Of a DNA stretch of 64,000 bases, positions 53,451 to 64,000 are shown in pieces; position 1 is the stretch's first letter, and every line of letters begins with the position of its first letter. Below the pieces are notes generated by a model, which did not search any database, was not told where the DNA came from, and saw only the letters and a list, made by a program, of their open reading frames with translations. Made by a program: the position numbers and the translations under genes. The DNA comes from Ruania halotolerans (GTDB lineage: Bacteria > Actinomycetota > Actinomycetes > Actinomycetales > Beutenbergiaceae), in NCBI RefSeq assembly GCF_021049285.1, contig NZ_CP088017.1:2243380-2307379 (forward strand), in the 5' to 3' direction.

Positions 53451-54875
53451 ATGTTCAGTAGTGCCGAGGAGGCCATCGCCTTCACCAAGGAGCAGGACGT
53501 CAAGTTCGTCGACGTACGGTTCTGCGACCTGCCGGGGGTGATGCAGCACTTCAACATCCCAGTCGAGGCCTTCAATGAGGACGCCTTCTCCGACGGCCTG
53601 ATGTTCGACGGTTCGTCGATCCGCGGGTTCCAGGCGATCCACGAGTCCGACATGAAGCTCATCCCGGACGTCACGAGTGCGTTCATCGACCCGTTCCGCA
53701 CGCAGAAGACCCTCGTGGTGAACTTCTCCATCGTGGACCCGTTCACCGACGAGCCCTACTCGCGTGACCCACGCAACATCGCCGCGAAGGCCGAGGCCTA
53801 CCTCGCCTCGACCGGCATTGCCGACACGGTGTACTTCGGCGCCGAGGCCGAGTTCTACATCTTCGACGACGTTCGATTCCAGACCGGTCCGGACTCGAGC
53901 TACTACTTCATCAACTCGAACGAGGCCGCGTGGAACACCGGCCGTGACGAGGAGGGTGGCAACCGCGGGTACAAGACCCGGTTCAAGGGCGGCTACTTCC
54001 CCGTCTCCCCCAACGATCAGATGGCTGACCTGCGCGACTCGATGGTCTCGGTCATGCAGCAGAACGGCCTCGAGGTCGAGCGGGCGCACCACGAGGTGGG
54101 CACCGCCGGTCAGCAGGAGATCAACTACCGGTTCAACACGCTGCGCGCTTCGGGCGATGACCTGATGAAGTTCAAGTACATCGTGAAGAACGTGGCGTGG
54201 GAAGCGGGCAAGTCGGCCACGTTCATGCCTAAGCCGATCTTCGGCGACAACGGTTCGGGGATGCACTCACACCAGTCGCTGTGGAAGAACGGCGAGCCGT
54301 TGTTCTACGACGAGCGTGGCTATGGTGGTCTGTCCGACATCGCTCGCTGGTACATCGGTGGTCTGCTGGCACACGCGCCGTCGTTGCTGGCCTTCACGAA
54401 CCCGTCCCTGAACTCCTTCCACCGTCTGGTGCCGGGATTCGAGGCCCCGGTGAACCTGGTGTACTCGGCTCGGAACCGCTCTGCCTGCATCCGGATCCCG
54501 GTCACCGGTACCTCACCGAAGGCCAAGCGGGTGGAGTTCCGGGTGCCGGACCCGTCCTCGAACCCGTACCTGGCGTTCTCGGCGATGCTGATGGCTGGTC
54601 TGGACGGGATCAAGAACCGCATCGAGCCGCCGGAGCCGGTGGACAAGGACCTGTACGAGCTCCCGCCTGAGGAGCACGCGCAGATCGCACAGGTGCCGGA
54701 CTCGTTGACCGGTGTGCTCGATGCACTCGCGGCCGATCACGACTACCTCACCGAGGGCGACGTGTTCACGCCCGACCTGATCGAGACCTGGATCGACTAC
54801 AAGCGCACCAACGAGGTTGACGCCGTGCGCCTGCGGCCGCACCCGCACGAGTTCGAGCTGTACTACGACCTGTGA
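53451..54875 (+). CDS. glnA: Glutamine synthetase, type I
   Basis: 474 aa. ATP-dependent condensation of ammonia and glutamate; dodecamer in the cytoplasm. Seen: [18 protein letters not shown] with metal-binding Glu, [24 protein letters not shown] (ammonia/ATP site), [11 protein letters not shown], and the adenylylation site Y402 in [10 protein letters not shown]. It is therefore the GlnE-regulated GSI-beta form, and glnE lies 6 kb downstream. ATG 53451 follows AAGGAG. GlnR-type boxes lie upstream, and the 3' end is duplicated as part of a 62-bp tandem repeat. Confidence 0.97.
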
Positions 54876-55009
54876 GGAGTGAGCGGAGCTTGCGGAGCGA
54901 GCCCCGCCAACAGGTCGTCACCAACAGAGACCTGTGAGGAGTGAGCGGAGCTTGCGGCGCGAGCCCCGCCAACAGGTCGTCACCAACAGAGACCTGTGAG
55001 GAGTGAGCG
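54867..55009 (+). repeat. 62-bp tandem repeat (2.3 copies) starting inside the glnA stop region
   Basis: Copies begin at 54867 and 54929 and a partial one at 54991 (19 bp). The two full copies differ at one base. Each unit starts with GACCTGTGA, the last two glnA codons plus stop, and contains ACAGGTC, so each can fold with 7-bp arms. The third, partial copy runs straight into the terminator. Confidence 0.9.
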
Positions 55010-55043
55010 AAGGCCCCGGATCCCCTGCGGATCCGGGGCCTTC
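55009..55043 (+). terminator. Hairpin terminator of glnA
   Basis: Perfect 15-bp stem (55009-55023 with 55029-55043) and 5-nt loop, 134 bp past the stop because of the intervening repeats. Confidence 0.85.
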
Positions 55044-55112
55044 GTCGTCCCGTACCCGCCGCCAGACGGTATGAAATTTATTTTCGCCGTCACGCAATAA
55101 TCGCGATAACCC

Positions 55113-55141
55113 TTGACACCGGTCGACCACGCTCCTACGGT
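55113..55141 (+). promoter_or_regulatory. Strong sigma-70 promoter of the GH3 gene
   Basis: Perfect -35 TTGACA (55113-55118), 17-bp spacer, -10 TACGGT (55136-55141). The leader is about 67 nt. The spacer contains the palindrome GGTCGACC (55121-55128), and an AT-rich stretch (55070-55110), unusual for this DNA, lies just upstream. Confidence 0.75.
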
Positions 55142-55214
55142 CCTGGACAGGCGCACCGGGCGAGGACGCCCAACGGTCATCACACCGTCGCGCCGTCCGA
55201 CACAGGAGGTTCTC

Positions 55215-57113
55215 GTGAAGGATCCAGGCAGAAGGCGCTTTGTGCGCCCGGTGACGGTAGCGATGGGCGCTGGCCTATTACTGAGCGGGGTCGCGCCCGC
55301 ATCCGCTGAGACGGAACCATCGCCGGCCCATGACATCGTGGCGATGGTCGACTCGATGACGCTGCAGGAGAAGATCGGCCAGATGACGTGGACCCACGTC
55401 TACGGTTCGTCCGCTCAGGACGCCTCGATGGCCGCAAGCAACCAGGCACGTTACGGCGTCGATACTCCCGCCGAGGTGGTGGAGAAGTACGACTTGGGCG
55501 GTGTGCTCTACTTCGCCTGGTCAGGGAACACCAACAACCCCCAGCAGATCACTGCCCTCTCCAATGGGCTGCAGGACGCCGCGCTGGGCGAGGACGGCCC
55601 CGGAGTCCCGCTCGCCGTGACGATCGACCAGGAGGGTGGCCTCGTCGCCCGCATCGGGCCACCTGCCACGCAGCTTCCGGGGAATATGGCGCTCGGTGCC
55701 ACTTTCGATGCCGACCTCGCGCGTGCCCAGGGCGAGATCCTCGGCGCCGAGATGCAGGCCATGGGTATCAACGTTGACTTCGCCCCCGTGGTCGACCTCA
55801 ACTCCAACCCGGACAACCCCGTCATCGGCATCCGATCGATGGGCGAAGACCCTGACGCTGTCAGTGAGCTCGGGGCTGCCCAGATCGAGGGCATCCAGGA
55901 GTACATCGGTGCGACGGCGAAGCACTTCCCCGGGCACGGGGACACCGAGGTCGACTCCCACTTCGGCCTGCCCGTCGTCACCTACGACCGTGCAACGCTG
56001 GACGACCACCTGCAGCCGTTCCAGGCGGCGATCGATGCTGGTGTGGACATGATCATGACCGCACACATCATCGTCGAGGCGATCGATCCTGATCTGCCGG
56101 GAACCTTGTCATCGGAGGTGCTCACCGGCCTGCTGCGGGAGGAGATGGGTTTCGACGGCATCATCACCACCGATGCACTCGATATGGGCGCGATGACGGA
56201 CAACTGGTCGCAGGAGGAGATGTCGGTCCTGGCGATCCAGGCTGGCTCGGACATTCTGCTCAACTCCCCCGACGTCGATGCCTCGATCGCCGGGGTCGAG
56301 CAGGCTGTGGCCGACGGCGTCATCACCGAGGACCGGCTCGACGAGTCAGTCACCCGGATCCTGGAATGGAAGGCGGAACGGGGCGTCCTGGACGACCCGT
56401 ACGCCGATCCCGGTGCAGTGGATTCCGTCGTCGGGAACTCGGCCCACCTGGAGACGGCCGCGACAATCGCGAACCGCTCCATCACTCTGCTGCGCAACGA
56501 GGATCGCCCCCTCCCGCTCGACGTCGCCACCGACACAGTGCTTGTGGTCGGCGCCGGAGCAGCGTGGCCGGAACGCCTGGGGCCGATGTTGGCCAATCGC
56601 GGATTCGACGTGATCGAGGAGTACGAGAACGGGAGCTCGCCCTCACCTGCCTACCGGGCCCGCGCAGTCGCTGCCGCCGAGGACGCTGACGCGGTGGTGT
56701 TCACCTCCTACAACGCCAGCAACAACACAGCCCAGCAACAGATGGTCGCCGATCTGGCCGCCACGGATACTCCGGTAGTCGTCGTCGCTGCCCGCAACCC
56801 CTATGACATCAACGTGTTCGACGACGCCGACGCTGTGCTGAACAGCTACGGCTACAACGTGGTGAACTATGCAGCCGTCGTCCGGGCCATCGCCGGTGAC
56901 ATCAACCCCTCCGGCGAACTGCCGGTGGACGTACCGACGGCGGACGGGAGCGAGACGTTGCTGCCCCTCGGCTTCGGCCGCCATTACCCCGGTCCGCCAG
57001 ATCACGCCGGGCCACCCGATCACGCCGGTCCGCCAGATCACGCCGGTCCGCCAGATCACGCCGGGCCGCCCGACCATGCCGGGCCACCCGACCACGCCGG
57101 ACCGAACAACTGA
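55215..57113 (+). CDS. Exported GH3 beta-N-acetylhexosaminidase-like enzyme (NagZ type) with GPPDHA-repeat tail
   Basis: 632 aa. Signal peptide 1-31 (basic start, VAMGAGLLLSGVAPASA). GH3 barrel about 38-390 with IDQEGGLVARI, KHFPGHGDTEVDSH containing the D247-S-H249 dyad that marks NagZ-type hydrolases, and the nucleophile D320 in ITTDALDMGAM. A second alpha/beta domain (about 415-590) is present, as in Gram-positive NagZ. Predicted to release GlcNAc from muropeptides or similar oligosaccharides outside the cell. The last 40 residues are six GPPDHA repeats. GTG 55215 follows AGGAGG at 6 nt and starts the signal peptide. The NamZ-like gene follows 30 bp later, so both are one operon. Confidence 0.87.
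   Translation: MKDPGRRRFVRPVTVAMGAGLLLSGVAPASAETEPSPAHDIVAMVDSMTLQEKIGQMTWTHVYGSSAQDASMAASNQARYGVDTPAEVVEKYDLGGVLYFAWSGNTNNPQQITALSNGLQDAALGEDGPGVPLAVTIDQEGGLVARIGPPATQLPGNMALGATFDADLARAQGEILGAEMQAMGINVDFAPVVDLNSNPDNPVIGIRSMGEDPDAVSELGAAQIEGIQEYIGATAKHFPGHGDTEVDSHFGLPVVTYDRATLDDHLQPFQAAIDAGVDMIMTAHIIVEAIDPDLPGTLSSEVLTGLLREEMGFDGIITTDALDMGAMTDNWSQEEMSVLAIQAGSDILLNSPDVDASIAGVEQAVADGVITEDRLDESVTRILEWKAERGVLDDPYADPGAVDSVVGNSAHLETAATIANRSITLLRNEDRPLPLDVATDTVLVVGAGAAWPERLGPMLANRGFDVIEEYENGSSPSPAYRARAVAAAEDADAVVFTSYNASNNTAQQQMVADLAATDTPVVVVAARNPYDINVFDDADAVLNSYGYNVVNYAAVVRAIAGDINPSGELPVDVPTADGSETLLPLGFGRHYPGPPDHAGPPDHAGPPDHAGPPDHAGPPDHAGPPDHAGPNN
56991..57098 (+). repeat. Six 18-bp repeats encoding GPPDHA
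   Basis: Six in-frame units; units 1, 3 and 4 are identical at the DNA level and the others differ at wobble positions. They form the C-terminal tail of the GH3 protein. Confidence 0.95.
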
Positions 57114-57143
57114 CCCCGTCCACCTCAACGAAGAGGAGCCACG

Positions 57144-58481
57144 ATGAGCAGACGTACCTGGAGAGGACTTGCGGTGGGTGCCGCGCTGGCGATGGCGGTG
57201 ACCAGTTCATTCGCACCGATGGCACCTGGTGAGAGACCCGATACCCCACCCGGGCTCGATCGTCCGCTCGAGCTCGGCGTCGAGGTCCTCCTCGATGACC
57301 TCACCCAACTGGAGGGGCAGCGAGTCGGCATCATCACCAACCCCACCGGCGTCACCTCGGAGCTGACCCATATCATCGACGCGCTGATCGCTGGTGAGGA
57401 GGACGGCGGCTACGAGGTCACCGCCCTGTACGGGCCCGAGCACGGGGTGCGCGGCGGGGTCCCGGCCGGGGCGTACGTGGAGAGCTATGTCGACGAGCGG
57501 ACCGGGCTTCCGGTGTACTCCCTGTACGGCCCCACGAGGAAGCCGTCACCGGAGATGCTTGCCGACGTCGACGTCCTACTCTTCGACATCCAGGACATCG
57601 GCGCACGCTTCTACACCTATATCTGGACGATGTACTACGCGATGGAGGCGGCCGCCGAGAACGACAAGGAGTTCGTAGTGCTCGACCGGCCGAACCCGCT
57701 CGGCGATCGGATGGATGGTCCGGTGCTGGAATATCCGGAACTCAGCTCGTTCGTGGGTCTACGGGAAATTCCGCTCCAGCACGGAATGACAGTGGGCGAG
57801 CTCGCGCAGTTCTTCAACGGTGAACTGCTTCAGAATCCGGCGGACCTGGACGTCGTGGAGATGTCCGGCTACGACCCGAGCGAGATCGTCGCAGAGTGGG
57901 ACATGCCGTGGGTGCTGCCTTCACCGAATATCCCCACCCATGAGACAGCGTTGGTGTATCCCGGAACCGGTCTGATCGAGTCGATCAATGTGTCCGAGGG
58001 GCGCGGCACCACCAAACCGTTCCTGTGGTTCGGCGCGCCCTTCATCGATGAGACGGAGTCGTCCGCTCTCGCGGCCGACCTCAACTCGCGTGGCCTGGAC
58101 GGTGTGACCTTCCGGCCGGCGTCCGCCACGCCGTCGGCGAGCAAGCATGCCGGTCAGTTCTCGGGCGGCCTCGAAACGCACATCACCGACCCGGCAGCGT
58201 ATGAATCCTTGCGGGTGGGCGTGCACGTTCTCGACGCGCTGTTCACCCACATCGATGAGGTGGACTGGCGAGAGGGCGAGGGCTGCCGCACGCCGGAGGA
58301 CCGATGCTGGATCGACTTGCTATCAGGCACGAGGGATGTGCGCGCTCAGCTCGAGGCCGGCGTCGCTCCGGACGAGATCGTCGCCGGATGGGACGAGGAT
58401 CTGGCTGCGTTCGCTGCGCTCGCCGAGCCGTACCGCCTCTACGACGACCAGCACCCGGGCCGCGGTCACGGTCGTCACTAA
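57144..58481 (+). CDS. namZ: Exported DUF1343/GH171 exo-N-acetylmuramidase-like protein (NamZ type)
   Basis: 445 aa. Signal peptide about 1-24 (RRTWRGLAVGAALAMAVTSS). DUF1343 motifs in order: GQRVGIITNPTGVT, LYGPEHGVRGG with the candidate catalytic Glu99, LLFDIQDIGARFYTYIW (147-161), VLDRPNPLGDRMDGP, PSPNIPTHETALVYPGT and SEGRGTTKPF. Characterised members cleave terminal MurNAc from the non-reducing end of glycan strands and work with a NagZ. Here the NagZ-like GH3 gene is directly upstream, strongly supporting the role. Usual length about 400 aa plus signal. GAAGAGGAG precedes ATG 57144. Gene symbol is by family. Confidence 0.85.
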   Translation: MSRRTWRGLAVGAALAMAVTSSFAPMAPGERPDTPPGLDRPLELGVEVLLDDLTQLEGQRVGIITNPTGVTSELTHIIDALIAGEEDGGYEVTALYGPEHGVRGGVPAGAYVESYVDERTGLPVYSLYGPTRKPSPEMLADVDVLLFDIQDIGARFYTYIWTMYYAMEAAAENDKEFVVLDRPNPLGDRMDGPVLEYPELSSFVGLREIPLQHGMTVGELAQFFNGELLQNPADLDVVEMSGYDPSEIVAEWDMPWVLPSPNIPTHETALVYPGTGLIESINVSEGRGTTKPFLWFGAPFIDETESSALAADLNSRGLDGVTFRPASATPSASKHAGQFSGGLETHITDPAAYESLRVGVHVLDALFTHIDEVDWREGEGCRTPEDRCWIDLLSGTRDVRAQLEAGVAPDEIVAGWDEDLAAFAALAEPYRLYDDQHPGRGHGRH

Positions 58482-58485
58482 CCGA

Positions 58486-58529
58486 CTCGGGCCGAGAGGG
58501 CTGCGAGCAGTCACCCTCTCGGCCCGGGC
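58486..58529. terminator. Bidirectional hairpin between the namZ-like and PL8 genes
   Basis: 15-bp stem with one G-T wobble (58486-58500 with 58515-58529) and a 14-nt loop, directly between the convergent stops at 58481 and 58542. Confidence 0.8.
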
Positions 58530-58541
58530 CGGGTCAGATCA

Positions 58542-61064
58542 TCAGGTCAGGGTGGCGGTGAAGGTTCTGCCGTGGGCCTGATGCGTCCGGACGGTGACCT
58601 TGGTCCCACCCGGTACGCGGGCAACCGTGACGCCGTCATCGGCCTCGGCCAGGGCGAGCGGGCGGCCACGGACCGTCACCGAGACGCTCTCACGACGCAT
58701 CGTCGGGTCGGAGACGGCAAGCTCCACGGCTCCGTCGCGCCGCCGGGCGATCACCGACGCGGGACCATCGATCGCAAGCCGCTCCGCCTGATGGGTTCCC
58801 TCCACGAACACGTTCGCGGCCACCACACCGAGCCCGGTGTGCTTGACAGCCTGGACCCGGTCGTTGTTCCGCAACACGCTGAGCGGTCCTGGATAGGCCG
58901 CCAACGACGCCTCGTCTGCGTGCGGCAACAGCGCGTATGCGATCGCGTCGGGCCCTGATCCGGCCGGATGATTCACACTGAGGCCGAACACCTGCTTGGT
59001 CACCCGAGTGTTCGGGTTGGAGAGGCGGATCGCCCGCCTGCTGCGGGTGACAACCTCGAGTGTGACATCGACGTCGTGCTCGTCCAGCAGAACATACCCG
59101 ACGGCGCCACCCTGATCGGCGTTGACGTAGCGCAACCAGGCAAGAGGTGCCTCGCCGGTGCCTGACCATGGGCTCCCATCGCGGAGTGCTCCGGTGATCT
59201 GCACGTCGTCTCCCGGGTTCGCGATCCTGGAGTCGAGACTCGTCACCGCATCGCGCCCCGATCTACCGTCGATACCGGCTGCGAGGACGACGACCTCATC
59301 ATCGAACATGAACCAGGACTTGGTGGCGCTGGCGTTCTGATAGGTGACGAAGTCCTCCGGGAGGATCCCGGCCTGCTTATCTGCGTACGCGACGTCGTCA
59401 GAAAGCACCATGGCGACGGCGCCGAGACTTCCCAGGGTGGCCCCGCCCGAGTGGGGATTCGTGCCGCGCGGGAAGTAGACGTAGGTGTTCTGGGATTGGG
59501 ACGAGGAAGTGAACTCGAGCGGATGGTCCGGGTTCTCGTACCAGCGTTCACCATACAGCTCGGGGATACTGCGACGTTCCTCCACGGGCGCTGTCACACC
59601 GCCGAAGCGGTACGGCGCCACGGTCGTGTAGTAGTCGACGCCGAAAGCCTCGGTCTGATCCACATCGGAGAGGTAGAGATGGTGCGCGCCGTCGCCCTGG
59701 AACCAGGGCAGGAGATTCTCGCCGTTCATGTACTCGTACTTACTGATCCGGTCCGAACTGCGCGCCAGGGCGAAGGCGTAGCCCGGGCGCCGGTGCACCG
59801 TCCGGTCCATCGCGTTGAACGCCACATGGTCTTCGTCCGGATTGAGGTCGGCAGCGGGGATCGACGAGTCGCCGACGATCTGCGCGAACCGGGCAATGCT
59901 GACCGGTGAGTCGAAACGGGACGAGTCGAGCATCTCGGGTGAGGCGGAGTCGAGATGCTTCACGTACGCCTCGAGATCGGAGGCGTCCTGGTCGCTCGCA
60001 TAGGCCGACAGATCGACGATGGCCTCGGCCACCACCCGCACGTCGGTGTATCCGGTGGTGGTCCGCGAGACGGCACGCCCCTTGACGATCTCCATCATCC
60101 AGCCCTGATAGATCAGCGGGGCGAAGCCATGGCGGACCCAACCCGTCACGACCGCAACGAGGTCCGCGTTGCTGGTCTGTGACGTACCGTCGAGGATCTT
60201 CACGGTCTGGACAACCCTGGTGAGCAAACCCTTCCCGTAGGAGCCCGTGTAGGCGACCGAATGGTGCTGGATGAAGGAGCCGTCCGCGTAGTATCCATCG
60301 GTCACGCCATGGGCAAGGTTGTACGGATCAATCGTGGCGAACACGGTCGACTGGTCCGCGATTGCCTTGGAGATGCGCGCGTCGTCGCCGGTGAGGGCGC
60401 CCTGCAGGATGCGGTTGGTGGTGATGTCGGCCAGGTTCGCACCGGTGTGGAAGCGGGAATCGAGATTCACATCGCCACCGACGCCGTTGCGCAGGTAGGC
60501 GTCCATCGTCGCGATGTAGGTGGTCACTAGATCTGGCCGGTAGGTGGCGAGTTCGTCGGCCAGGAGGACAAGCGTGCGCGTGACGTCGGTCGGGAAGCCG
60601 ATCTCCCAGTTGAACCAATTGCCGTAGTAGCCCGCCTGCTGGTCGGCGAGATAGTGCTCGTGCAGCCAGACCAGGCCGTCGATCACCTGCCGCTGAACGT
60701 CGACGTCATCGAGCAGGTCGGATCCGGGAGTACGGGTCGCCAGGGCGATCTCGTAGAGGTAGGTGGTCGTCCGGCGCAGGTGGGTGTCATTCGAGCCCAG
60801 CGGCTGCCCGGCGAAAAGCTCGCCGGCGCCGGCGTCGGCCATATCTGCCAATCGGATCTGCGCGGCGGACTCGATCGCCGCCACCTTCGGCGCAACCTCC
60901 GGACGCGCATTCGACTCGGTGGTACCAGCCAGCATCGCCACAGTGTTGGCGAGCAAACGGGTGTGCTGCGTCGGCGTGTCGGCATGTGCCAACAGCGGAG
61001 CGCCGACGGTGAAGAGTCCAGCGGCGGGAATGATGGACAAGACGTGACGGCGGGTGAGCTGCAT
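58542..61064 (-). CDS. Tat-exported polysaccharide lyase family 8 enzyme
   Basis: 840 aa. Tat signal (TRRHVLS, then IIPAAGLFTVGAPLLAHAD). The alpha/alpha toroid (about 35-390) has GNWFNWEIGFP, TGANLADITTN with candidate catalytic N210, and DGSFIQHHSVAYTGSYG with H267 and Y276; beta-sheet domains follow (from about 400: NAMDRTVHRRPGYAFAL, YMNGENLLPWFQGDGAHHLY). PL8 enzymes are beta-eliminating lyases acting on hyaluronate, chondroitin or xanthan; the substrate cannot be decided here. ATG 61064 starts the Tat signal. It is convergent with the GH3-namZ operon and lies 85 bp after the glnE stop, same strand, with its own promoter. Confidence 0.9.
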   Translation of the reverse strand: MQLTRRHVLSIIPAAGLFTVGAPLLAHADTPTQHTRLLANTVAMLAGTTESNARPEVAPKVAAIESAAQIRLADMADAGAGELFAGQPLGSNDTHLRRTTTYLYEIALATRTPGSDLLDDVDVQRQVIDGLVWLHEHYLADQQAGYYGNWFNWEIGFPTDVTRTLVLLADELATYRPDLVTTYIATMDAYLRNGVGGDVNLDSRFHTGANLADITTNRILQGALTGDDARISKAIADQSTVFATIDPYNLAHGVTDGYYADGSFIQHHSVAYTGSYGKGLLTRVVQTVKILDGTSQTSNADLVAVVTGWVRHGFAPLIYQGWMMEIVKGRAVSRTTTGYTDVRVVAEAIVDLSAYASDQDASDLEAYVKHLDSASPEMLDSSRFDSPVSIARFAQIVGDSSIPAADLNPDEDHVAFNAMDRTVHRRPGYAFALARSSDRISKYEYMNGENLLPWFQGDGAHHLYLSDVDQTEAFGVDYYTTVAPYRFGGVTAPVEERRSIPELYGERWYENPDHPLEFTSSSQSQNTYVYFPRGTNPHSGGATLGSLGAVAMVLSDDVAYADKQAGILPEDFVTYQNASATKSWFMFDDEVVVLAAGIDGRSGRDAVTSLDSRIANPGDDVQITGALRDGSPWSGTGEAPLAWLRYVNADQGGAVGYVLLDEHDVDVTLEVVTRSRRAIRLSNPNTRVTKQVFGLSVNHPAGSGPDAIAYALLPHADEASLAAYPGPLSVLRNNDRVQAVKHTGLGVVAANVFVEGTHQAERLAIDGPASVIARRRDGAVELAVSDPTMRRESVSVTVRGRPLALAEADDGVTVARVPGGTKVTVRTHQAHGRTFTATLT

Positions 61065-61091
61065 CGTTGCGGATCCCTGAAGTTGTCGAGA

Positions 61092-61120
61092 ATGATCGGT
61101 AGTGACCATTTGGCATTCAA
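61092..61120 (-). promoter_or_regulatory. Promoter of the PL8 gene
   Basis: Minus strand: -35 TTGAAT (61115-61120), 17-bp spacer, -10 GATCAT (61092-61097), leader about 20 nt. The spacer contains TGGTCACTACC, an imperfect palindrome resembling the GGTCGACC in the spacer of the GH3 promoter. Confidence 0.5.
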
Positions 61121-61149: not shown

Positions 61150-64000
61150 TCACCCGTAAAACACACGCTCCATGACCGTGCGTGCCCGACGCGCCGCGCG
61201 CAGCCAGTCCTGTTCGAGGTCCACGGCGTGGCCGGGCTCGTAGCCGAGCAGTCGCGAGACGGTCGAGAGAGTCTGACGCTCGGCCGGCAGGATATCCACG
61301 CGTTGACCGCGTGCTCGACCAGTCGCCAGAACAATCGCATTCCGCAAGCGGGTGGCCAGCTCCCATGCGCGGATGAGCTGATCCGCATCGGAACCGCTCA
61401 GCAACGACAGGTCGCGAGCGGCCAACAGGGCCTCGCGGGTGCCAGGAACACGGAGTTCCGGATGTTCTCCGGCGTGCTGGAGTTGCAGGAGCTGGGCGGT
61501 CCACTCCACATCGGTGAGACCACCGCGGCCGAGTTTGAGGTGATGGGTGGCAGGGACGCCGCGCGGCAACCGCTCGGCTTCGACGCGGGCCTTGATCCGG
61601 CGCAATTCACGCAACTCGGCGGAGTCCAGTCCACCGGCCGGGTATCGGTACTCCTGGATCAGCGCAGTGAACCGCTCGCCCAGCTCCCCGTCGCCGCACG
61701 CCACCCGGGCGCGAAGCAGCGCCTGCCGCTCCCAGCCGAGCGCCCACCGCTGGTAGTACTTGGCATAGGAGTCGAGGGTGCGCACGACGGGCCCCTGCTT
61801 CCCCTCGGGCCTGAGGGCAGTATCCACCGCCAGCTGAGGTTCGCTCGCCATCGAGCCGAGCAGACTGGCGATCGAGTTGGCGACCTCGAGTGCCCAGGCA
61901 CTCGCGAGCTGGCCGTCGGCACCTGGGCGCGGATCGTGAACGAACATGACGTCGGCGTCGCTGGCGTATACGACTTCCGCACCGCCCAGACGGCCCATCG
62001 CCACCACGAGAAAGGCCGTCGGGGATTCGGTGAGTTCGTGCTTGACGTTCGCCTCGTGGGCGGCGATTCGGAGCGCACCGGCCAGCGCCATATCCGCCGC
62101 CGGGGAGATCACCCGGCGGCAGGTATCGACCGGTACGTGTTCCAGCACGTCGCGGATTGCCCCGCGGGTCAGCTCACGCCGGCGCAGGAATCGCACCGCC
62201 GAGGCTGCCTTCGTCGCATCATCACGTCGCACCAGCATCGCGTCCATGTGGGTCGCGAGCGCGTCGGTCGTACGCGGCTGGAGGTCCTTGTCGTCGTCCA
62301 ACCAGGCGACGGCGTCAGTCAGCTGGGCCAGATTGTCCGCCACATAGGTGGAGGCCGAGAGAAGATGGGCGAGCCGGTCCGCCGCGGCACCGGAGTCACG
62401 CAGCAGTTTGAGATACCAGTGCGTGCTGCCGAGAGAGTCCGAGAGTTTGCGGAACGCCAGCAGGGCGCCGTCCGGATCGCTGCCTTCGGCGAACCAGCCG
62501 AGCATCACCGGCAGGAGTTGCCGCTGGATGGCGGCTCGCCTCGAGACACCCTCGGTGAGTGCCTTGATGTGCCGCGTGGCACCACTCGGGTCGCGGTACC
62601 CGATGGCTCGCAGTCGTGCCGTGGCCGCCTCGGCTGTCAGCGAGGCGTCATCGGCGGACAACCGCGCGGTCTCGGGCAGGAGCGGCCGGTAGTACAGGTC
62701 CTCGTGCAGGCGTCGTACCTGGCGGCGGGTCGTCCGCCATCGGGCGCTCAGGCCGCCTGGGCCTTCCACCGGCAGTCGGGCGGCCCGGGCCAGGCGGCGT
62801 AGCTCCTCCTCGCCGGTGGGCATCAAGTGCGTGCGACGCAATCGGCTGAGTTGGACGCGATGCTCAAGCACGCGCAGGAACCGGTAGCACTGGGCGAGCT
62901 CAACGGCGTGATCGCGCCCCACGTATCCACCGGCAGCGAGGGCCGCGAGAGCGTCCAGAGTGTTCGCCGAACGGATCGTCGGGTCCACGCGGCCGTGCAC
63001 GAGTTGCAGCAGCTGTACGGTGAACTCCACATCGCGCAGGCCACCGCGGCCCAGTTTGATCTGCCGGTCCGCCTCGGCGATCGGCACGTGATCCTCCACG
63101 CGCCGGCGCATCGCCTGCGCGTCCTCCACGAAGTTCTCCCGGCCGACGGCGTCCCACACCAAGGGCCGAGTGGCCTCCAGGTATGCCGAACTGAGCTGGG
63201 TATCACCAGCCACATGCCGCGCTTTGAGCAATGCCTGGAACTCCCAGGTCTTGGCCCACCGTTCGTAGTAGCTGAGGTGGGATTCTAGGGTCCGCACCAA
63301 GGGTCCGTTCTTGCCTTCCGGGCGAAGCGCAGCATCCACTTCCCAGAGGGCCGGCTCCCGGGACGGCATCGAACACATCCGCGCCATCGCGGCAGCCAGC
63401 CTTGCGCCGGACCGCATGGCCTCGTCCTCGGCCACCCCCTCGGCCGGTTCAGCGACGTAGATCACGTCCACGTCGGAGATGTAGTTGAGTTCTTCGCCGC
63501 CCGTCTTCCCCATTCCCAGGACGGCCAGGCGCACGCCCGCGGCATGGTCAGCGAACTCTGCGCGAGCGAGCGCGAGAGCTGCCTCGAGGGCTCCACCGGC
63601 AAGGTGCGCGAGTGCGGCAGCCACGTCGGGCAGCAGTGCCTCCGGGTCGCTGGAGGTCAGGTCCTGGGTGGCGATCTCGAGCAGAAACCTGCGATAGGTG
63701 CGCCGCATCTCGTCCAACGTTCCGTCACCGGCGGGTGCGGCGGCGACGGGGACCGGGGCGGACGGATCGGCCCCGACGGAGCGCAGCATCAGGGCACGTA
63801 CCCGGCGCGGATCGCTGCCGATTCCGTCGGGAACGTCCAGCACGATGCTCACGTCGTCAGGATGGCTGATCAGCCAGTCGCCGAGCGCCGGGGAGGCACC
63901 GAGTACGCCGATCAGCCGATCCCGCGAAGCCGAGTCCTCGGCGAGTACGTTCTGCAACCGGTGTGCGTCGTTCTCGACGGCCTCACCGAGACGAACCAGG
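61150..64000 (-). CDS. glnE: Bifunctional glutamine synthetase adenylyltransferase/adenylyl-removing enzyme, 5' end beyond the window
   Basis: 950 codons are visible; the frame continues past 64000, where it still reads LVRLGEAVENDAHRLQNVL. Controls GlnA by adenylylating Y402 and removing the AMP. The two nucleotidyltransferase domains are seen: the N-terminal (deadenylylating) one with LGMGKTGGEELNYISDVDVI and the C-terminal (adenylylating) one with MGRLGGAEVVYASDADVMFV; helical PII-response regions lie between and after. Normally it lies next to glnA; here three exported-enzyme genes separate them. Confidence 0.95.
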   Translation of the reverse strand, partial: LVRLGEAVENDAHRLQNVLAEDSASRDRLIGVLGASPALGDWLISHPDDVSIVLDVPDGIGSDPRRVRALMLRSVGADPSAPVPVAAAPAGDGTLDEMRRTYRRFLLEIATQDLTSSDPEALLPDVAAALAHLAGGALEAALALARAEFADHAAGVRLAVLGMGKTGGEELNYISDVDVIYVAEPAEGVAEDEAMRSGARLAAAMARMCSMPSREPALWEVDAALRPEGKNGPLVRTLESHLSYYERWAKTWEFQALLKARHVAGDTQLSSAYLEATRPLVWDAVGRENFVEDAQAMRRRVEDHVPIAEADRQIKLGRGGLRDVEFTVQLLQLVHGRVDPTIRSANTLDALAALAAGGYVGRDHAVELAQCYRFLRVLEHRVQLSRLRRTHLMPTGEEELRRLARAARLPVEGPGGLSARWRTTRRQVRRLHEDLYYRPLLPETARLSADDASLTAEAATARLRAIGYRDPSGATRHIKALTEGVSRRAAIQRQLLPVMLGWFAEGSDPDGALLAFRKLSDSLGSTHWYLKLLRDSGAAADRLAHLLSASTYVADNLAQLTDAVAWLDDDKDLQPRTTDALATHMDAMLVRRDDATKAASAVRFLRRRELTRGAIRDVLEHVPVDTCRRVISPAADMALAGALRIAAHEANVKHELTESPTAFLVVAMGRLGGAEVVYASDADVMFVHDPRPGADGQLASAWALEVANSIASLLGSMASEPQLAVDTALRPEGKQGPVVRTLDSYAKYYQRWALGWERQALLRARVACGDGELGERFTALIQEYRYPAGGLDSAELRELRRIKARVEAERLPRGVPATHHLKLGRGGLTDVEWTAQLLQLQHAGEHPELRVPGTREALLAARDLSLLSGSDADQLIRAWELATRLRNAIVLATGRARGQRVDILPAERQTLSTVSRLLGYEPGHAVDLEQDWLRAARRARTVMERVFYG

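Follow-up and report, generated by a model that had tools for sequence, protein, structure and literature searches.

We have described here a group of three genes situated between glnA and glnE in Ruania halotolerans, within a 64,000-nucleotide stretch of DNA that was analysed as a whole (the window; C1:2243380-2307379 of a genome, G000, that is a single contig of 4.27 Mb). The genes encode a NagZ-type protein of glycoside hydrolase family 3 (GH3), a NamZ-type protein of family GH171 and a lyase of family PL8, and the GH3 gene is preceded by a short leader. The first two are a known enzyme pair found here in a new context, and it is the leader that most deserves further attention. Pfam scores lie well over the curated cut-offs for the N and C domains of GH3, for NamZ_N and NamZ_C, and for the N, central and C domains of Lyase_8, and the Pfam and NCBIfam scores agree with a preliminary description that placed three genes of these families between glnA and glnE. 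Relatives were drawn from a sample of 24 genomes of the family, in which Occultella (Ruaniaceae, Micrococcales) is counted together with the window genome, and from an order sample of 396 genomes (the family and 372 others); the eight genomes of group g1 are referred to as Ruania-type.

The best solved match of the GH3 protein is B. subtilis YbbD/NagZ, with which both domains align (325 bits). Its N domain carries a KHxPGHGxxxxDSH-type motif (KHFPGHGDTEVDSH) and TDA, which we take to be the catalytic motif and the nucleophile of GH3 NagZ proteins, and it retains the Asp that is replaced by Asn in 4gyj, another entry of the same YbbD/NagZ protein. The GH171 protein scores 267.9 bits with NamZ_N and 150.5 bits with NamZ_C, both over the curated cut-offs, and matches both solved relatives found, one over almost its full length; PEHG, DIQDxG and DRPNP are kept relative to both of these, and GRGTT relative to 4jja only. 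By eye, the N-terminus of GH3 is Sec-like (...GVAPASA), that of PL8 is Tat-like (TRRHVL...AHA) and that of GH171 is hydrophobic, in keeping with the export signal that had been proposed for each protein. GH3 and GH171 thus appear from their sequences to be the known secreted NagZ-NamZ peptidoglycan pair, ordinary in kind, and the domains, the solved matches and the adjacency of the two genes make it the straightforward reading that a NagZ-type GH3, and then a NamZ-type GH171, would act outside the cell. We also note an 18-bp tandem repeat (56989-57104) that encodes the C-terminal PPDHAG tail of GH3; species differ in the number of copies, and the Isoptericola GH3 has no such tail.

The coordinates of the genes and of the features between them are collected in Table 1. 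The GH3 start is probably the GTG at 55215, behind AGGAGG, rather than the TTG at 55113, which is unlikely because it falls within the -35 box of the conserved promoter-like element; transcription is predicted to start near 55147. The PL8 start is probably the ATG at 61064, rather than a position near 61120. Each gene had been credited with its own promoter, and this stands for GH3, before which a TTGAC-N17-TAnnnT element is seen by eye in the window and in relatives. It does not stand for GH171, which probably lacks a promoter of its own because it begins only 30 nt past the GH3 stop, and the two genes are probably co-transcribed; PL8 lies on the same strand as glnE, 85 nt downstream, and could be transcribed from it. 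The terminator said to be shared by GH171 and PL8 is supported by a strong stem-loop between their ends, although it lacks a T-run. A consensus scan for promoters and terminators was not above chance, with one promoter-like match (0.8 expected) and one terminator-like match (2.1 expected), none of them in these gaps. Repeats resembling TGAAATTTATTTTC are seen by eye in Isoptericola and Occultella. A 62-bp direct repeat (2.3 copies, 98% matches) lies directly 3' of glnA (54867-55009).

Table 1. Genes and sequence features of the glnA-glnE interval and its flanks, in window coordinates
Feature	Position	Strand	Evidence or remark
glnA, type I glutamine synthetase, left flank	53451..54875	+	NCBIfam TIGR00653, 668.6 bits; Pfam
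Terminator-like stem-loop of glnA	55008..55044	+	54985-55055 (71 nt): predicted fold of -44.1 kcal/mol, z -6.3
Imperfect inverted repeat TGAAATTTATTTTC, candidate operator	55072..55085		Pattern match in window and G001 only
Promoter-like TTGACA-N17-TACGGT 5' of GH3	55113..55141	+	Conserved in upstream regions of relatives, by eye
Conserved GH3 leader, probable three-helix RNA	55149..55198	+	P1 GGCGC/GCGCC, P2 GGGC/GCCC, P3 CGGU/ACCG
GH3 ribosome-binding site AGGAGG	55204..55209	+	Sequence
Secreted-type two-domain GH3, NagZ type, 632 aa	55215..57113	+	Motif KHFPGHGDTEVDSH at residue 236; C-terminal PPDHAG repeats
GH171, NamZ-type exo-beta-N-acetylmuramidase family, 445 aa	57144..58481	+	
Candidate shared terminator: stem-loop between the convergent ends of GH171 and PL8	58482..58541		-41.3 kcal/mol, z -5.4; no T-run
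PL8 lyase, 840 aa, Tat-like signal by eye	58542..61064	-	Catalytic N/H/Y/R/R kept
glnE, glutamine synthetase adenylyltransferase, right flank	61150..63957	-	NF010707, 1283.5 bits

Distribution of the GH3-GH171 pair and of MurQ

GH171 is present in 16 of the 24 family genomes and is matched at E 1e-60 in 61 of the 396 order genomes. Among the 30 best order GH171 loci, GH3 lies inside the 1.5-kb flanks in 24 (four of them in Ruania-type genomes) and PL8 in three. A Bacillus-type NagZ-NamZ pair is found in a sizeable minority of the sampled Micrococcales genomes. Ten family genomes have adjacent secreted-type GH3 and GH171 genes (G000, G001, G003, G006, G015 and G017-G021), and in six of these PL8 is elsewhere.

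The preliminary description had found no transporter, amidase or MurNAc-6-phosphate etherase (MurQ; MurNAc is N-acetylmuramic acid) nearby. This is correct for the interval, which is not a Bacillus-type MurNAc recovery cluster, but it does not extend to the genome in the case of MurQ: G000 encodes one at C1:2852653, 0.55 Mb from the interval (349.9 bits, cut-off 168), adjoining a second GH3/NagZ that has no visible signal and the same motif pattern. MurQ is over the cut-off in 19 of the 24 family genomes, including 16 of the 16 with GH171 and three of the eight without. The GH171 of the interval is the only one in G000, which has no second, cytosolic-type copy. In G007 (L058 7482-19440), apparently cytosolic NagZ and NamZ proteins are encoded together with a PIG-L deacetylase, a GNAT protein, an oligopeptide ATP-binding cassette (ABC) transporter, MurQ and beta-lactamase-family genes; judged by gene clustering, L057 and L059 carry the same type of cluster, which is likely a muropeptide uptake and recycling cluster of other Ruania-type genomes.

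PL8 and the glnA-glnE interval

PL8 follows a different distribution. Its orthologue (E 1e-100) is found in 16 of the 24 family genomes and in one of the other 372 order genomes, and it is linked to the pair in only four of those 16. The interval has the order GH3-GH171-PL8 in G000, G001 and G003 and PL8-GH3-GH171 in G006, and in G005 it contains PL8 without the pair, whose usual place is occupied by LysR-, EamA-, SRPBCC- and SDR-like genes (by eye). In up to 19.5 kb around PL8 in the other 11 family genomes no GH3 or GH171 was found; the G004 contig stops 0.5 kb past PL8. The scattered family distribution rules out the three-gene cassette as a conserved unit as far as PL8 is concerned; independent scattering of the genes in relatives, which the preliminary description had itself named as refuting its view, is what is seen for PL8. 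The larger suggestion, of one system that joins peptidoglycan recycling with glycosaminoglycan breakdown, fares no better, since PL8 is unlinked in most of its carriers. The pair is thereby set apart from a neighbouring gene that had hinted at a grander system.

The arrangement in G006 bears on how pair and lyase were assembled. The glnE end lies 85-90 nt upstream of PL8 in G000, G001, G003 and G005, and G006 has, 88 nt upstream of PL8, a segment that agrees with the 3'-terminal 36 nt of glnE at 27 of 36 positions. This relic ranks second only to glnE itself among the 38,930 positions of the 19.5-kb G006 stretch (the next best has 22 matches); when the glnE end was aligned freely and locally with the region upstream of the G006 PL8, the score of 29 did not reach the highest value among 200 shuffles (38; their mean was 20). 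The relic suggests that the pair and the lyase came together separately, and we infer that PL8 was probably first behind glnE, with the pair later placed between them in G006.

We consider it quite likely that a secreted NagZ-NamZ pair frees N-acetylglucosamine (GlcNAc) and MurNAc for MurQ-dependent recovery, and that PL8 is a separate neighbour. The gene identities, catalytic motifs, conservation of the pair, cross-family spread of GH3, independence of PL8 and presence of MurQ are observed, and from these we infer the activities, export, uptake route, reaction order and physiological role as follows. On peptidoglycan strands that are free of peptides, NagZ would remove beta-N-acetylglucosamine from the non-reducing end and NamZ would next remove MurNAc, again from the non-reducing end, so that extracellular wall-turnover fragments would be reduced to GlcNAc and MurNAc. 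Both sugars would be imported by some carrier, with MurNAc entering metabolism via the MurQ encoded elsewhere in the genome. PL8 would be an enzyme particular to the lineage, encoded in the same glnA-glnE interval but no fixed part of the pathway.

Several observations weigh against parts of this reading. The GH3 protein scores 166.6 bits against the 207-bit cut-off of NF003740, the NCBIfam beta-N-acetylhexosaminidase equivalog listed; that model has 340 positions and the window GH3 is a longer, two-domain protein, and it is by similarity to YbbD, not by this equivalog, that it is assigned as a Bacillus-type NagZ. The G006 GH3 frame has no ATG, GTG or TTG before residue MVEAM (L055 7210-7560), and this protein may not be exported. 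Three genomes of genus code g18 (G093, G524 and G520) keep GH3 and its leader and show no GH171 within about 3-8 kb on either side, so that GH3 can stand without its partner. The co-occurrence counts of MurQ and GH171 ignore kinship. Lastly, all four Ruania-type genomes with a close (87-89%) pair have PL8 in the same interval, in two gene orders, and this co-location could reflect a selected link.

The strongest alternative, to which we give roughly an even chance, is that glnA-glnE is a mere insertion site with no functional relation beyond NagZ-NamZ, and that PL8 is a dietary xanthan or glycosaminoglycan lyase; it agrees with the explanation above on the pair and differs only by giving PL8 a substrate class. 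The glnA-glnE distance is indeed variable (about 1.7 kb in G019, 4.6 kb in G008, 5.9 kb in G023 and 6.3 kb in the window), and unrelated genes stand at the position of the pair in G005. Three Lyase_8 domains and a catalytic Asn-His-Tyr-Arg set place the lyase in PL8, with the catalytic Asn, His, Tyr and two Arg kept in 22 of 22 aligned PL8s of these genomes, and its nearest solved relatives are xanthan lyases, followed by chondroitinase AC and hyaluronate lyases. The G007 PL8 adjoins a GH53-GH42-ABC sugar cluster, and the same gene clusters occur in G002 and G004. However, the scores are far under the NCBIfam equivalog cut-offs for hyaluronate lyase (273.3 of 1350 bits) and chondroitinase (111.6 of 1000 bits), and the three residues that we take to recognise pyruvyl-mannose in xanthan lyase give a mixed picture: Arg313 is kept, Tyr315 corresponds to a gap or to Thr depending on the alignment, and Arg612 lies beside an alignment gap. 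PF07470 (GH88/GH105) matches 11 of the 24 family genomes, nine over the cut-off, but no GH88, the unsaturated glucuronyl hydrolase that would be expected in a glycosaminoglycan utilisation locus, is linked to PL8, the one GH88-family match in G000 being 1.27 Mb away. In the explanation favoured above, the substrate of PL8 would be some uronate-containing glycan.

Two side observations concern PL8 itself. Genome-wide, G001 has eight matches to the PL8 family, some being fragments of a single gene, yet none to GH88/GH105. In Occultella (L077 1865-9157) a 2430-aa protein with five DUF5979 stretches lies beside the PL8 orthologue, and members of this DUF5979-protein cluster lie beside PL8 or one open reading frame from it in four of four g7 genomes.

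A second alternative, which we regard as improbable, is that the three genes form one secreted wall-glycan unit serving recycling or predation, in which PL8 would cut a peptidoglycan-bound uronate (teichuronic-type) polymer and NagZ-NamZ would trim the strands. The four Ruania-type genomes keep the pair and PL8 in the interval even where the order differs, as in G006, in which the two are still adjacent and divergent over about 250 nt; the near confinement of the PL8 orthologue to the family within the order sample fits such a unit, as does the lack of any GH88/GH105 match at E 0.001 in G001, G003 and G006, three of the four interval carriers. These points are set against the absence of linkage in 12 of 16 family carriers and the G005 interval, which holds PL8 alone. 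Moreover, a 65% PL8 relative occurs in Nonomuraea, a member of another order, on an 11.85-Mb record labelled plasmid where it is unannotated and the neighbours are uninformative by eye, and a literature search on teichuronic acid lyases gave no such lyase by title or abstract start. A scavenging or fratricide system against other bacteria, as had also been suggested, is very improbable: secretion signals, seen by eye only, would suit it, but besides the three genes the interval has no recognisable gene for an endo-acting hydrolase, an amidase or immunity, exo-acting hexosaminidases are to our knowledge not expected to lyse intact walls, and evidence for fratricide was not found.

The GH3 leader and the origin of GH3

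The leader is a conserved element under strong constraint. It is 72-91% identical to that of the window in relatives in which the four-fold degenerate sites of GH3 are only 44-49% identical, even relative to G001 of the same genus, and the excised 50 nt adopt one and the same three-helix fold in four sequences, those of the window, G001, G003 and Isoptericola, at z values of -2.2 to -3.8. No Rfam match overlaps it, even at E 10. The three-helix fold is not seen in the leaders of Occultella and Georgenia, and the G006 GH3 has no leader.

A model built from the four sequences that share the fold (Isoptericola being represented by an I. cucumis record) gave E 0.01 matches in 27 of the 396 order genomes, namely three training genomes, G093 and 23 at 27-32 bits; the G093 match (E 4.5e-5, 37.8 bits) lies directly 5' of an 81%-identical GH3. 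A five-sequence model searched against 221 genomes of the family of G093 gave E 0.05 matches in 36, with four standing out at 50-67 bits (G093, G518 and, newly, G524 and G520, both before the same GH3) and the rest at 34 bits at most; of 29 loci checked, only three strong ones had GH3. Blind search thus added three leader genomes (G093, G524 and G520), and these widen the sample within a genus and not to a third lineage, because all four stand-outs belong to g18, the genus code of the Isoptericola training sequence.

Across the seven distinct leader sequences 91 of 91 pair cells can pair, with two of the 13 pairs changed on both sides and 11 invariant, and the covariation score was reached by one of 500 shuffles in an alignment that had been fitted to the model. 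The support is uneven between helices, and several results weigh against a three-way junction and against P1 in particular. Of 500 shuffles of the seven sequences, 64 had at least as many doubly changed pairs, and covariation among the original four was not above shuffles (122 of 500). RNAalifold on the leader together with the early coding region keeps P2 and P3, pairs the arms of P1 with coding sequence and gives an unfavourable covariation term, and longer single-sequence folds favour P1 only in G001, forcing it in the other six of seven costing 2.6-6.3 kcal/mol. The start codon is predicted to be mostly paired in three of the seven sequences, and when P1 is forced it is followed, in four sequences (window, G003, G524 and G520), by a hairpin in which the start codon is paired. 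An RNA structure is likely for P2 and P3 by these models; a role as a regulatory switch is speculative. We offer, as a tentative proposal held with less than even confidence, that the leader is a new cis-regulatory RNA. The 5' end of the mRNA would form a three-way junction of 50 nt, with a hairpin behind it that in some species can pair the start codon, and this structure would govern how much of the secreted NagZ (and of NamZ) is translated, the signal being for example an amino sugar, a protein or temperature; the RNA would have travelled with GH3 between Ruaniaceae and the genus of Isoptericola. This compact conserved leader may control the salvage of extracellular peptidoglycan, and if it is regulatory, it would help to find out when actinobacteria reclaim wall sugars.

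The genes had been described as acquired, and for GH3 there is good reason to agree. The window GH3 is 81-82% identical to that of Isoptericola and 73-74% to that of Occultella, whereas the corresponding values for glnE are 62% and 73-74%; for Georgenia they are 73% for GH3 and 62% for glnE. The GH3 tree joins Occultella and Georgenia (99/100) and places the Ruania-type sequences in an unresolved fork with the genus of Isoptericola. A clade of Ruania-type and Occultella GH3 without others is rejected (p-AU 1.9e-25), whereas one of Ruania-type and g18 GH3 is not (p 0.35), both groupings having been chosen after the first tree was seen. The contrast between GH3 and glnE identities and the rejected clade support transfer of GH3 between families. 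GH171 is about 80% identical to both Isoptericola and Occultella, and this identity contrast points in the same direction, although the GH171 tree does not resolve how the Ruania-type, Occultella, Isoptericola and Georgenia sequences branch. A plasmid vehicle was considered and rejected: GH171 matched 28 plasmid records, all below 60% identity and the 10 listed all from haloarchaea, and PL8 matched 19, of which one, that of Nonomuraea, reached 65%. The tRNA search of the window found none, so that a tRNA-linked island is not supported, and at a G+C content of 0.64-0.69 the interval is not clearly foreign.

Comparison with known systems

The window PL8 has its family and the catalytic Asn/His/Tyr/Arg/Arg in common with the xanthan lyase of Bacillus GL1, from which it differs in having no counterpart of Tyr315 and in having EIG, not QLG, after the aromatic patch. 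Among actinobacteria, mycobacterial LpqI is described in PMC6572805 as a NagZ that primes recycling, and M. tuberculosis is reported there to lack murQ, whereas the window genome has one. The solved LpqI chain has 343 aa and matches only the N-terminal part of the window GH3. Tannerella forsythia NamZ1 and NamZ2 are reportedly peptidoglycan-processing exo-muramidases, and that organism belongs to a different phylum and offers a different genetic setting. Closer to the window, the apparently intracellular NamZ-NagZ-oligopeptide ABC-MurQ cluster of Ruaniaceae (L058) draws on the same two enzyme families, but has no signal peptide by eye, a GH171 that is 39-41% identical, and PIG-L, GNAT, ABC and MurQ neighbours.

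A close parallel is in B. subtilis, whose ybbC we take to be namZ. There amiE, nagZ and ybbC come after murQRP, and AmiE and NagZ act extracellularly (PMC5061867). The murQ-murR-murP-amiE-nagZ-ybbC cluster likewise encodes a secreted two-domain NagZ together with ybbC, the gene that we take to be of the NamZ family. Unlike that cluster, the window pair has no adjacent murQRP or amiE; its MurQ lies 0.55 Mb off beside the other NagZ, and its neighbours are PL8 and the glnA and glnE genes.

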